Shown piece after piece: positions 14,006 through 32,486 of a stretch of DNA of 49,522 bases. The translations under genes and the position numbers were made by a program. Origin of the DNA: Candidatus Woesebacteria bacterium (GTDB lineage: Bacteria; Patescibacteriota; Microgenomatia; Woykebacterales; 2-01-FULL-43-14); the NCBI GenBank assembly GCA_020060105.1, contig JAGVAV010000001.1, positions 1-49,522 on the forward strand, given 5' to 3'. A model generated the notes under the pieces. It worked only from the letters and a program-made list of their open reading frames with translations. It ran no database searches and had not been told where the DNA came from. How positions within the stretch are numbered: position 1 is the stretch's first letter; every line of letters begins with the position of its first letter.

Positions 14006-14763
14006 TATCGGCCATCAACTCTTTCCACAAATTTCGCCGATTTCAGTTCTCTCTCCAACAAAAACTCCAGATAATCTCTTAGCTGCTGTTCGAGTTCCAT
14101 TCCCAAAGCTGACGGAATCCGAAGTTTTTCAACCTGATTCCAAGGCTCACCCTGAAGAAAACGAAGGACCTTGATTGCTTCGGCAGAAACCGGGCGAGAG
14201 TCTGGATCTATATTAACACATCCGGAGCAAACAATTCCACCTAGAGATTGACTGAATCGGTTGTTGTCGGGAAACAAAATCCGGAAGCATTTAACGCAAT
14301 TGGTTAGTTGGGGTCGAAAACCAAAGTAATTTAAAAGCTTAATTTCAAAAGCCCTTAAACTGGTTTTGACTTGAGAAAAGTCCTTTTCTTCGTTCACACT
14401 CCCTAACACAGTCAAAAGCAGCTTAAAAACCTGATTGTTTTCCTGATTTTCCTGGGCAAATTGATCAACCAACTCAACAACATGATAAGTGTAACTAACC
14501 AGCTTCAAATTTTCGCGAATCCGCCGAAAAGGGTTGATTACTTGAACCTCGGTCAAAACATCCATGTTTCGGCCCTCAGCCAGTAAAAAAGCCCCGTGAT
14601 TGAAAAGCTCAACATTTCCGCCTTTGCGGCTTTCCATTTTCCTCACACCTTTAGCAATCGCCGTAATTTTGCCTTTGTTTTTGGAAAAAATCGTGAGGAT
14701 TCGATCCGCTTCACCAAAGTCTTTTCTTTTCAAAACCACACCCTCTGTTTTGTAGGTTGCCAT
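14005..14763 (-). CDS. recO: DNA repair protein RecO
   Basis: TEGVVLKRKDFGEADRILTIFSKNKGKI, Cys pairs CVKC..CSGC. Confidence 0.93.
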   Translation of the reverse strand: MATYKTEGVVLKRKDFGEADRILTIFSKNKGKITAIAKGVRKMESRKGGNVELFNHGAFLLAEGRNMDVLTEVQVINPFRRIRENLKLVSYTYHVVELVDQFAQENQENNQVFKLLLTVLGSVNEEKDFSQVKTSLRAFEIKLLNYFGFRPQLTNCVKCFRILFPDNNRFSQSLGGIVCSGCVNIDPDSRPVSAEAIKVLRFLQGEPWNQVEKLRIPSALGMELEQQLRDYLEFLLERELKSAKFVERVDGR

Positions 14764-22379: not shown

Positions 22380-22485
22380 AAATCAAATTTTCTTTGATTA
22401 AAAATTAAATGATTTATGATTAACGATTGTTTACTTCTCTTATCCTTAAAATAAACTCTTTAATCCTTAATCTTTAATCATTGAG
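22380..22485. repeat. AT-rich imperfect inverted repeat, GATTAATGA word type
   Basis: TTTGATTAAAAATTAAATGATTTATGATTAACGATTG / CTCTTTAATCCTTAATCTTTAATCATTGAG. Confidence 0.65.
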
Positions 22486-23599
22486 CACTAGTTTTTGCAT
22501 TTTTCAAGTCCAAATATTTTTCCTCAACGAACCTTTTTATCTTTTCTTTGAATTGTTCCTTATCAAACTTCTCAGCTTGCTTTCGACAAAGACCTGGATC
22601 GTATTTTTCCGGATTGAAATTTTTGACCGTGTTAATCAAAGCTTTGCTGTTTTGAGGAAAGAAAAATCCGCCAGTTTCGCCAGGTAGTATTGATTCTAAC
22701 ACACCGCCGGCCTGGTAGGCAATAACTGGTTTTCCGGCTGCCATGGCCTCCACTGGAACAATCCCAAAGTCCTCATGAGCGGCAAATATCACCGCCCGGC
22801 AACGGCTTAAATATTCAAGCAAAGACTGATCGCTGATTCGGCCTAGAAACTCAACGTTAGCTTTAGCCATTTTCTTCAAACGCCCCAGTTCCAAACCCGA
22901 ACCAGCCACCTTTAAGGGCAGGCCTAGTTGATTAAACGCCTCAACGATCAAATCAACCCTTTTATGAGCGACTAATCGGCCGTAGGTAAAAAAATACTCC
23001 CCCCTATTCGATTCAACCTTAAGAAATTTCTTAATATCCACCGGGGGATACACCACCTCGGCTTCACAAAGGTAGTGTTTTCTGACTCTTCCTTTTGTTT
23101 CCTCTGAGTTTGCCACGTAATAATCAACTAATCCCGCCGCGGATTTATCCCAACCCCTCATTAGAGAATAAACTTTGGGCATGAAAGGAAAAATTTTCTT
23201 GATCTTCTGATGGTCTAGCTCCGTGTCGTAGCCATATAAGTAACGGGGAGGGGTGTGGCAATAACAAATGTGCAAAGAATAAGGATAGCCCCGAGCGTAG
23301 TGAGCGGCGTAAGAACTCGAACTAATAATCACGTCGTAACCACTTAATTTTAAATATCGAAAAGCGAGAGGATAAAAAAGGAAATAAGGTTTGGCTAAAG
23401 CTTTCTTAAGGGGTAGCTTCTGCATCCAAGTCGTTCGAATCTTCATCCCCTGATCTTCAAATCCCGCTTTTTGCATCTCTTTTTTTAGATAAAAAGAAGT
23501 AAAAATTGGGGCTTGGGGCCAAATTTCATGCAAGGCCTCTAAGACCTTTTCCGCCCCGCCATATTGATATAAGTAATCATGAACAATTGCAAGCTTCAT
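22478..23599 (-). CDS. Glycosyltransferase family 4 (group 1)
   Basis: LAIVHDYLYQYGGAEKVLEAL, FTYGRLVAHKRVDLIVEAF, AAHEDFGIVPVEAMAAGKPVIAYQAGG; start at MKLAIVHDY because the upstream MTRGVT lies in a palindromic repeat. Confidence 0.92.
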   Translation of the reverse strand: MKLAIVHDYLYQYGGAEKVLEALHEIWPQAPIFTSFYLKKEMQKAGFEDQGMKIRTTWMQKLPLKKALAKPYFLFYPLAFRYLKLSGYDVIISSSSYAAHYARGYPYSLHICYCHTPPRYLYGYDTELDHQKIKKIFPFMPKVYSLMRGWDKSAAGLVDYYVANSEETKGRVRKHYLCEAEVVYPPVDIKKFLKVESNRGEYFFTYGRLVAHKRVDLIVEAFNQLGLPLKVAGSGLELGRLKKMAKANVEFLGRISDQSLLEYLSRCRAVIFAAHEDFGIVPVEAMAAGKPVIAYQAGGVLESILPGETGGFFFPQNSKALINTVKNFNPEKYDPGLCRKQAEKFDKEQFKEKIKRFVEEKYLDLKNAKTSAQ

Positions 23600-23612
23600 A
23601 GTAACCCCGCGG

Positions 23613-23670
23613 GTCATTGCGAGTCCGCCAGCCCCGATTGGATCGGGGCGTTGGCGGACGTGGCAATCTC
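23613..23670. repeat. GTCATTGCGAG...GCAATCTC hairpin, left flank of GIY-YIG gene
   Basis: GTCATTGCGAGTCCGCCAGCCCCGATTGGATCGGGGCGTTGGCGGACGTGGCAATCTC. Confidence 0.88.
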
Positions 23671-23677
23671 AAAAATT

Positions 23678-23974
23678 CTATTTAACAACCTCATCGTATA
23701 AATCCCTAAAAGTTGGATTAACTTTGCTTATAAGATCTAGTTTCTTTCTCCTCGAACCTGACTTTATCTGTTTTTCTCTTTCTATAGCTAAATTGATTTC
23801 GCTAAAAATTTCATAATAAACTAATTTGTTCACATTATATTTGGAAGTAAAACTAGAAATCAGTTTTTCTTTATGCTTAAAAACCCTTCTAATTAAATTG
23901 TTAGTGACACCTGTATAAAGAACAGTATTGGCCTTGTTAGTGATTAAGTAAACATAGTACGGTTTTTCTTGCAT
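23678..23974 (-). CDS. GIY-YIG nuclease domain protein (small, UPF0213-like/COG2827-like)
   Basis: YYVYLITNKANTVLYTGVTNNLIRRVFKHK..FTSKYNVNKLVYYE...AIEREKQIKSGSRRKKLDLI..NPTFRDLYDEV. Confidence 0.93.
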   Translation of the reverse strand: MQEKPYYVYLITNKANTVLYTGVTNNLIRRVFKHKEKLISSFTSKYNVNKLVYYEIFSEINLAIEREKQIKSGSRRKKLDLISKVNPTFRDLYDEVVK

Positions 23975-23983
23975 ACGGTCTAA

Positions 23984-24054
23984 GAGATTGCTTCGTCTCC
24001 GGCTTTGCTACAGTACCATTTCGGTACGTAGCTTTGCCGGATCCTCGCAATGAC
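23984..24054. repeat. GTCATTGCGAG...GCAATCTC hairpin (inverted orientation), right flank of GIY-YIG gene
   Basis: GAGATTGCTTCGTCTCCGGCTTTGCTACAGTACCATTTCGGTACGTAGC..CCGGATCCTCGCAATGAC. Confidence 0.88.
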
Positions 24055-24068
24055 AAGAGTATGGAGCT

Positions 24069-24103
24069 GTCGTTGCGAGTTGTGAAATACCCGAAGCAAT
24101 CTC
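24069..24103. repeat. Solo GTCGTTGCGAG...GCAATCTC repeat
   Basis: GTCGTTGCGAGTTGTGAAATACCCGAAGCAATCTC. Confidence 0.8.
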
Positions 24104-30944: not shown

Positions 30945-32407
30945 AGGTTTCTAGCAAGCTTATCCATTTTTATTAGATATACTAACGGGGGAATAAAAAT
31001 TACTAAAGAAACAAGAATTTGCAAACTATAAGAATCAATCGACCAGTAGCCAAATAACAAGGGGATTAGATAATAAAATAATGATGAAATTGTCAATATC
31101 AAAACTGTCTTAAAAAAATAATCGTAGCGAGTACCCACCAGAAAAACACTAAAAACGAAAGGCCAAGAAGCGTACCAAGGCCAGAAGGATCGTTGAAAGA
31201 AAAATAAGTACCCAATCAGAAAAACTACAATGGAAGCGATTAAAAACAAAGGTTCAATCTTTTCCTTATTTAACCACTTCTTCAAAAAACTAGGGAAAAG
31301 ACGATAAACGTAAGCTAAAAAGGTTATCGAAAATCCTACTTGCAAAACTCTCGGTACTAAGTGATCGACTAGGTTAGTTTTGTCAAAGTATTCTGCCAAA
31401 AGAGCAGCTATCGCGTGAACTCCGGAAAAAAGAGTATTGGCAATCCATTTCGTTTGCCAGCGAATTCCGTCAAAAATTGCCAATCCTGCCCAATAAGGAG
31501 CAAAGAAAACAACCGCTAAGAGTAAGGAAAGCATACCGCCTATCAGAACTCTTAATAAAGCTTGGCATAAATTTTGGCGATTATTAACCAAATAAAATAA
31601 TAAAAAGAATGGAAGGAAATAGGCGGCTAACGCCTTTGTTAGTATTGCCAAAGATAACCAAAAAATAGCCGTGATAAAATTATTTTTAACCAAAAAGTAA
31701 AGCCCAACTAATGAGAAAAAAAGCATTATCGGATCAAAATGGGCCTGACCGACAAACTCAAACAACATTAATGGATTAAAAAAATAAAGTAAAGCTGGAA
31801 GAGATGGTTTTTCTAATTTTATCTCTTTTGAAATAAGGTAAACCATCCAACTTGTTAAAAGATGGAAGGTTAACATTACTAGTTTGTACCAAAGTAAGCT
31901 TAACCAGATTTGGCCAAACGAAAAGAGGACAATTAACTTATTTATGTAAAGCCACAATGGAAAGTACATTACTCCCCCCGCTTCGGTAAGCTGATATTTT
32001 GTGGCGAAAGGGTTGTACCGGACAAAATTATCAATGTATGGATTGATCCCCTTCAAAAGTTCGTCTCGGCCAACTCCTAAATAGTAGAAAGGATCGAAGG
32101 TTGCAAAAGGAACCAAAATTATTAAGGAGGAGAAAAGTAGAAAGATCAACCATTTTTGCCGGGAAAAGATGAAGTCTCTAAACCCATCGTTAACCAACCG
32201 CAGGTAAAAGAAGAAAACAGTGGCCAGGATTAGGCCAATAAAGAAAGTGTTGCTAATATTGCTTAAAGTCGAACTAGGTTGGCAAGTAAGATAAGAATCA
32301 AAAAAATAACAATTATTTTTGATAATTCCAGGTAAATGAAAAAGACTTGGTACCGCGAGAACAACCCAAGAAACAGCAAACCAGAAAAAAGGGTTAGGAT
32401 TAGTCAT
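30917..32407 (-). CDS. Polytopic membrane glycosyltransferase (mannosyltransferase-like, GT87/PIG-M-like)
   Basis: Many TM segments, DPFYYLGVGRDELLKGINPYIDNF, AHFDPIMLFFSLVGLY; start reset to MTNPNPFFW because the ORF-track N-terminus is repeat-encoded. Confidence 0.75.
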   Translation of the reverse strand: MTNPNPFFWFAVSWVVLAVPSLFHLPGIIKNNCYFFDSYLTCQPSSTLSNISNTFFIGLILATVFFFYLRLVNDGFRDFIFSRQKWLIFLLFSSLIILVPFATFDPFYYLGVGRDELLKGINPYIDNFVRYNPFATKYQLTEAGGVMYFPLWLYINKLIVLFSFGQIWLSLLWYKLVMLTFHLLTSWMVYLISKEIKLEKPSLPALLYFFNPLMLFEFVGQAHFDPIMLFFSLVGLYFLVKNNFITAIFWLSLAILTKALAAYFLPFFLLFYLVNNRQNLCQALLRVLIGGMLSLLLAVVFFAPYWAGLAIFDGIRWQTKWIANTLFSGVHAIAALLAEYFDKTNLVDHLVPRVLQVGFSITFLAYVYRLFPSFLKKWLNKEKIEPLFLIASIVVFLIGYLFFFQRSFWPWYASWPFVFSVFLVGTRYDYFFKTVLILTISSLFYYLIPLLFGYWSIDSYSLQILVSLVIFIPPLVYLIKMDKLARNLSGSSPRRW

Positions 32408-32486
32408 TGCGAGTGACCGAAGGGAAAGCGGCAATCTCAAACAACTTAAGATTGCTGCGCCCGCCAGCCGGCGGATTCGCAATGAC
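32403..32486. repeat. Paired outward-facing GTCATTGCGA...GCAATCT hairpins without an intervening ORF
   Basis: GTCATTGCGAGTGACCGAAGGGAAAGCGGCAATCTC AAACAACTTA AGATTGCTGCGCCCGCCAGCCGGCGGATTCGCAATGAC. Confidence 0.85.

Follow-up and report, generated by a model that had tools for sequence, protein, structure and literature searches.

A small GIY-YIG nuclease between inverted CGTC-like repeats in a Woesebacteria genome: a probable minimal selfish element related to Ssn

Ssn, a meningococcal protein, is reportedly a sequence-specific single-strand nuclease acting on a repeat of the kind considered here, and Chenal et al. (Nat Commun 2025) are said to have reported homologues with other specificities for repeats of their own. 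To our knowledge, that description does not include the REPIN pairing, the rule for residue 73 or the gain and loss alleles given below; part of the nuclease-repeat picture may already be published. A literature search, which the original Ssn paper lay beyond, returned no paper describing a link between such a nuclease and CGTC REPs. CGTC-tagged REPs, including dRS3 of Neisseria (the CGTC-1 family), were defined by Di Nocera et al. 2013 (PMC3733652). The published families have stems of 8-9 bp, loops of 4-5 nt and a CCA-like tail, and a dedicated transposase was apparently absent according to the same authors (PMC3733652).

A locus comparable with these systems was analyzed in a window of 49,522 nucleotides, the whole stretch of DNA under study, from the 1.09-Mb genome of a Candidatus Woesebacteria bacterium. 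Its features are as follows.

23613-24054, no strand assigned: REP-nuclease-REP cassette with the tags outermost, a 442-bp unit whose layout recurs in homologues
23613-23670, plus strand: hairpin of a CGTC-type REP next to the 3' end of the nuclease gene, GTCATTGCGAG ... GCAATCTC, fold z -5.6
23678-23974, minus strand: small GIY-YIG nuclease gene, 98 aa, Pfam PF01541
23753-23761, minus strand: codons of residues 72-74 (S-G-S), the proposed word-recognition loop between K71 and R75
23984-24054, minus strand: REP hairpin in inverted orientation, upstream of the start of the nuclease gene, fold z -5.0
24069-24103, plus strand: third, diverged REP copy, GTCGTTGCGAG ... GCAATCTC, a weak hairpin
32403-32486, no strand assigned: REPIN-like tag-outward pair with the same word and a short spacer, without a nuclease gene

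On re-check of the sequence, the coordinates and the hairpin-ORF-hairpin layout proposed in an earlier, sequence-only reading of this DNA were all confirmed. The left element consists of GTCATTGCGAG (23613-23623, plus strand) and GCAATCTC (23663-23670) around its interior, the inverted element of GAGATTGC (23984-23991) and CTCGCAATGAC (24044-24054), and the GTCATTGCGAG tags of both hairpins face outward. The base preceding GTC is G at one cassette end and T at the other; the tag is therefore not strict in its first letter. Taken as single DNA strands, both flanking elements fold far better than shuffled sequences, with the z values listed; the gene-free pair folded whole gave z -5.1, and the third copy folds no better than shuffles (z 0.7). 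The exact 11-mer occurs three times in the 49.5 kb, both strands included, versus about 0.02 expected, and the bare word with two mismatches allowed showed no excess (8 in the window versus 7.7 in shuffles). An Rfam search of the repeat elements matched no RNA family.

The sole gene of the cassette encodes a GIY-YIG protein; an HUH tyrosine transposase as in IS200/IS605 elements is absent. The match to PF01541 reached 61.8 bits (cut-off 22.6), and an NCBIfam search of the 98-aa protein gave no named family. In the homologue alignment, the conserved Y9, Y20, G22, R30, H34, E67 and N86 are all present in the window protein, and the catalytic residues are kept across homologues as conserved columns. 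The AlphaFold2 model of the window protein has a pLDDT of 93.1, and its nearest solved structure, by both sequence and fold, is the UPF0213 protein BH0048 (PDB 1zg2), yet identity with this UPF0213/YhbQ-like protein is only about 30%. We know of no repeat association for the UPF0213/YhbQ-like group.

The pointer of the sequence-only reading to Ssn of Neisseria fits the data. The window protein is a small stand-alone GIY-YIG domain with the catalytic residues, alignable over most of the Neisseria protein, and its cognate repeat is found near the gene and elsewhere, with few copies in the window's own genome. A homologue in Neisseria gonorrhoeae, 43% identical over residues 8-97, is flanked by CGTCATTCCCGC..GCGGGAATC repeats of the dRS3 type, and its loop, K-W-N, is the one paired with ATTCCC words elsewhere. 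It has the K-x-W-x-R motif of other members, whereas the window member has Gly73 and probably reads TTGCGAG-type words.

The window repeat resembles the CGTC-tagged REPs (PMC3733652) in its GTC tag, its AT-starting stem, its inverted pairs and its intergenic site, and the unpaired (C/T)GTC tag does stand before that stem. However, its outer stem ATTGC/GCAAT has 5 bp, its interior is a variable hairpin and its tail is CTC, in place of the published 8-9 bp stem, 4-5 nt loop and CCA-like tail; because of these mismatches, the window repeats are regarded as CGTC-like and outside the four published families. The organisation is also that of RAYT/REPtron and REPIN systems, in that inverted REPs flank an enzyme gene, gene-free REP pairs lie elsewhere and there are usually one or few enzyme genes. 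Nevertheless, the enzyme rules out a RAYT element: RAYTs are HUH tyrosine transposases associated with a GTAG tag, whereas a GIY-YIG nuclease with a CGTC-type tag is found here. GIY-YIG homing endonucleases such as I-TevI are alike in that the gene is apparently inserted in its own recognition sequence, but the window protein has 98 aa without a separate DNA-binding domain, no intron or intein is involved, and the target is a dispersed repeat rather than a unique site. The most suitable classification of the locus is an Ssn-like nuclease accompanied by CGTC-like REPs.

Homologues of the nuclease were sought in one genome per species. The best 80 homologues (53-70% identity) came from over a dozen phyla, including CPR lineages, Chloroflexota, Bacteroidota, Planctomycetota, Elusimicrobiota, Cyanobacteriota, Bacillota, Pseudomonadota and others, so the system is not peculiar to CPR, a correction to the sequence-only reading. 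Among the best homologues, TCATTGCGAG with at most one mismatch was found within 150 bp of the gene upstream in 65, downstream in 60 and on both sides in 54 of 79 cases, compared with 57 of 2313 control windows (2.5%) located more than 1200 bp away. When only intergenic sequence was compared, the counts were 52/64 adjacent versus 18/144 far, and de novo 8-mer analysis, with no word presupposed, showed that the top-enriched 8-mers in the flanks all derive from the repeat. Of 333 genomes surveyed in the window's phylum, 98 had the nuclease and 57 of these the repeat, versus 23 of the 235 without a detected homologue (p = 1e-19, a value that ignores relatedness); the repeat was present in 20/20 of the genomes holding the closest homologues. 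The nuclease-repeat link claimed from the window is thus real and widespread. Tag-outward pairs without a gene mostly have gaps below 30 bp, and those around the nuclease have a median gap of 311 bp. Hairpin interiors were observed to vary between copies, including copies in a single genome, yet often can still pair with themselves, as would be expected if template switching or selection for the hairpin maintained them.

The exact window word is absent from 41 of the 98 genomes of the window's phylum that have a homologue, and the sequence-only reading had named homologues lacking the flanking pair as a finding that would refute a nuclease-repeat system. Some homologues do lack the window word, but most of these show the same hairpin architecture with another word, which usually matches on both sides, such as GTCATTCTGAG..GAATCTC, GTCATTCCCGC..GCGGGAATCCA, GTCATCCTGAG..GGATCTC, GTCATTCTGGC..CCAGAATC and further ones. 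One universal word for the nuclease family was rejected, as words differ by clade. Using a generic REP finder (GTCAT followed by three bases, and further on the complement of these followed by ATC, within 120 bp), a CGTC REP was detected on at least one side of 160/190 loci versus 15/380 control windows. The upstream and downstream words agreed in 75 of 101 loci compared with 33 by shuffling, and agreement persisted with the commonest word excluded (21/43 versus 4.9).

The word could also be predicted from the protein. The best word-predicting column was residue 73, within the motif K71-x-x-x-R75, where Gly accompanies TTGC-type words and mostly Trp accompanies TC or CC words; the fourth stem base of the word tracks this residue. 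In fresh loci, mainly from Pseudomonadota together with other phyla, Gly73 occurred with G in 7/7 and Trp73 with C or T in 64/66. Pooling these with the exploratory loci, the first set, in which the rule was found, gave a purine for Gly73 in 83/84 and a pyrimidine for bulky residues in 101/105. For bases 4, 5 and 6 of the word, the strongest signals came from columns 72, 73 and 74, which also led the weak signal for base 3; in the AlphaFold2 model, these residues lie between the Glu67-bearing helix and the next helix. The pairing of a small residue with a large base, and of a large residue with a small base, suggests a steric readout. Only 1-3 independent pairs fall on supported branches of the weakly resolved tree (about 97 columns), so relatedness may account for some of the raw covariation counts; on the other hand, a signal in three neighbouring columns argues against descent alone. 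Recognition of the word by the nuclease is therefore likely, and the earlier proposal to that effect is strongly supported by the cross-phyla link and by the residue-word covariation in fresh loci.

Occupied and empty alleles were found in relatives, in Maribacter and Planktothrix. At a single intergenic site in Maribacter, a clean empty form (L369), one-REPIN forms (L361, L363, L364, L366 and L367) and REPIN-nuclease forms (L358 and L360) were identified, with REPIN remnants or copies beyond; L360, which was scored empty by DNA match, contains a diverged nuclease ORF and was hence counted as a nuclease form. In plasmids of Planktothrix agardhii, the nuclease of strain No.66 lies within a REP array that runs without a break in PCC 7805, the left homology stopping exactly after GTCATTCTGAG. 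At the site covered by L356 (plasmid p1) and L357, the nuclease array is located between an MmeI/PglX-type methylase gene and DISARM drmA, and the nuclease-free allele has a PIN-domain gene and a hypothetical gene at that position. A conserved site in Nostoc (L335-L351) has a nuclease-REP array in place of a PIN-type (VapC-like) gene that relatives have and whose first bases remain, and REPs only in one genome; it was rejected as a clean empty site, since the PIN-type gene is replaced rather than cleanly interrupted. Repeat mobilisation, as the sequence-only reading had proposed, thus gains indirect support from these gain and loss alleles, which concern relatives and not the window's own site. 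Carriage of the nuclease by phages was also considered and rejected, with two weak matches only.

Based on these sequence-level data, namely the co-occurrence of nuclease and repeat across phyla, the shift of the flanking word with the nuclease and the prediction of the word from residues 72-74, the cassette is probably a minimal selfish element, in which an Ssn-type GIY-YIG nuclease has on either side a copy of the CGTC-tagged REP that it would recognise. The best current mechanism for its mobility would be cut-and-repair. The nuclease may bind and cut the word (its tag and the 5' arm of its stem), most probably while the word is exposed as single-stranded DNA or a hairpin, and host recombination would repair the cut using another REP-bearing copy. 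The loop-word covariation lends indirect support to such a putative sequence-specific cutting of single-stranded DNA. In this way, REPs and REPIN pairs could multiply across the genome, and now and then the nuclease gene itself could land in a REPIN already present. The scheme would parallel RAYT/REPIN systems, except that the HUH transposase is replaced by a hydrolytic GIY-YIG nuclease, and would be nearer to homing than to transposition. We know of no way in which a hydrolytic nuclease alone could join DNA. Further points against the selfish-element reading are the repeat in the 23/235 genomes without a detected homologue, the absence of the exact word from 41 of the 98 with one, the few repeats in the window's own genome, the Nostoc site with its replaced gene, and the small number of independent pairs on supported branches, owing to which descent may explain part of the covariation.

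More tentatively, and with somewhat less confidence than doubt, CGTC-tagged REPs in general might be non-autonomous parts of a distinct selfish class, spread without a transposase by small GIY-YIG nucleases through homing-like cut-and-repair at the REP word, with a three-residue loop setting the specificity (Gly73 for purine, Trp73 for pyrimidine). A repeat superfamily described in 2013 as lacking an enzyme now has a widespread candidate, which makes the question testable, and Neisseria dRS3 and CPR repeats are tied to one gene family. The relationship between loop 72-74 and word bases 3-6 amounts to a protein-DNA code that is simple and open to falsification and that could be relevant to programmable single-strand nucleases. 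If a bare hydrolytic nuclease were shown to mobilise a repeat, this would be an unusual spreading route.

A domesticated host system, in which single-stranded DNA that enters the cell or is being replicated would be cut by the nuclease at the repeat, with a tuning effect on uptake and recombination, the repeats being genomic targets and not parts of a mobile element, is an unlikely account that still deserves consideration. A host role in DNA uptake or recombination is said to have been proposed for Ssn in Neisseria, whose homologue lies among dRS3 repeats, and both the conserved catalytic residues and the usually few nuclease copies per genome agree with such a role. However, the patchy distribution, with 37 phylum changes on the homologue tree, the gain and loss alleles between close relatives and the occasional internal stop codons are a better fit to a selfish element. 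The two readings are compatible and not exclusive.

It is very improbable that another enzyme, for example a transposase, moves the repeats and that nuclease genes are frequent passengers or landing sites. REPs are indeed seen in genomes where no homologue was detected and at many positions other than the nuclease gene, but hitchhiking leaves unexplained both the prediction of the word by loop 72-74 across phyla and the different words of paralogues in the same genome, as in one Anaerolineales genome with several paralogues. Chance, or ordinary terminator hairpins beside a small gene, would agree with intergenic hairpins adjoining genes but is ruled out as a full explanation by the specific words common to several phyla, the flank enrichment and word concordance far above control, the de novo 8-mers, the outward tags and the lack of an Rfam match; a regulatory side effect of the hairpins is possible.

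The search of the window's own genome for further repeats, which the sequence-only reading had proposed, revealed few copies beyond the cassette, including the gene-free tag-outward pair at 32403-32486, which that reading had missed. A copy on contig C10 matches the right repeat of the cassette almost exactly along about 79 bp. On contig C16 (about 14652-14690, L383), a REPIN-like pair lies in frame within a 390-aa GalE-like epimerase ORF, reminiscent of the in-gene palindromic elements of Rickettsia. The near-identical copies at separate places and the in-frame pair speak for the selfish-element reading. Four more-distant GIY-YIG paralogues (36-40% identity) are encoded in this genome (L006, L008 and L009 on contig C17 and L007 on C15), three of them within 10 kb of one another; no paired repeat was found at the ends of any of the four, indicating that the repeat association is not general to GIY-YIG genes. 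In another genome (G109), 16 copies of the repeat pattern were observed on one strand only, with no nuclease homologue found, and they may represent a tandem array or a coding repeat. Finally, the neighbouring glycosyltransferase ORF in the window, as listed (22478-23617), starts inside the left REP, and the ATG at 23599 (MKLAIVHDY) is a likelier start.
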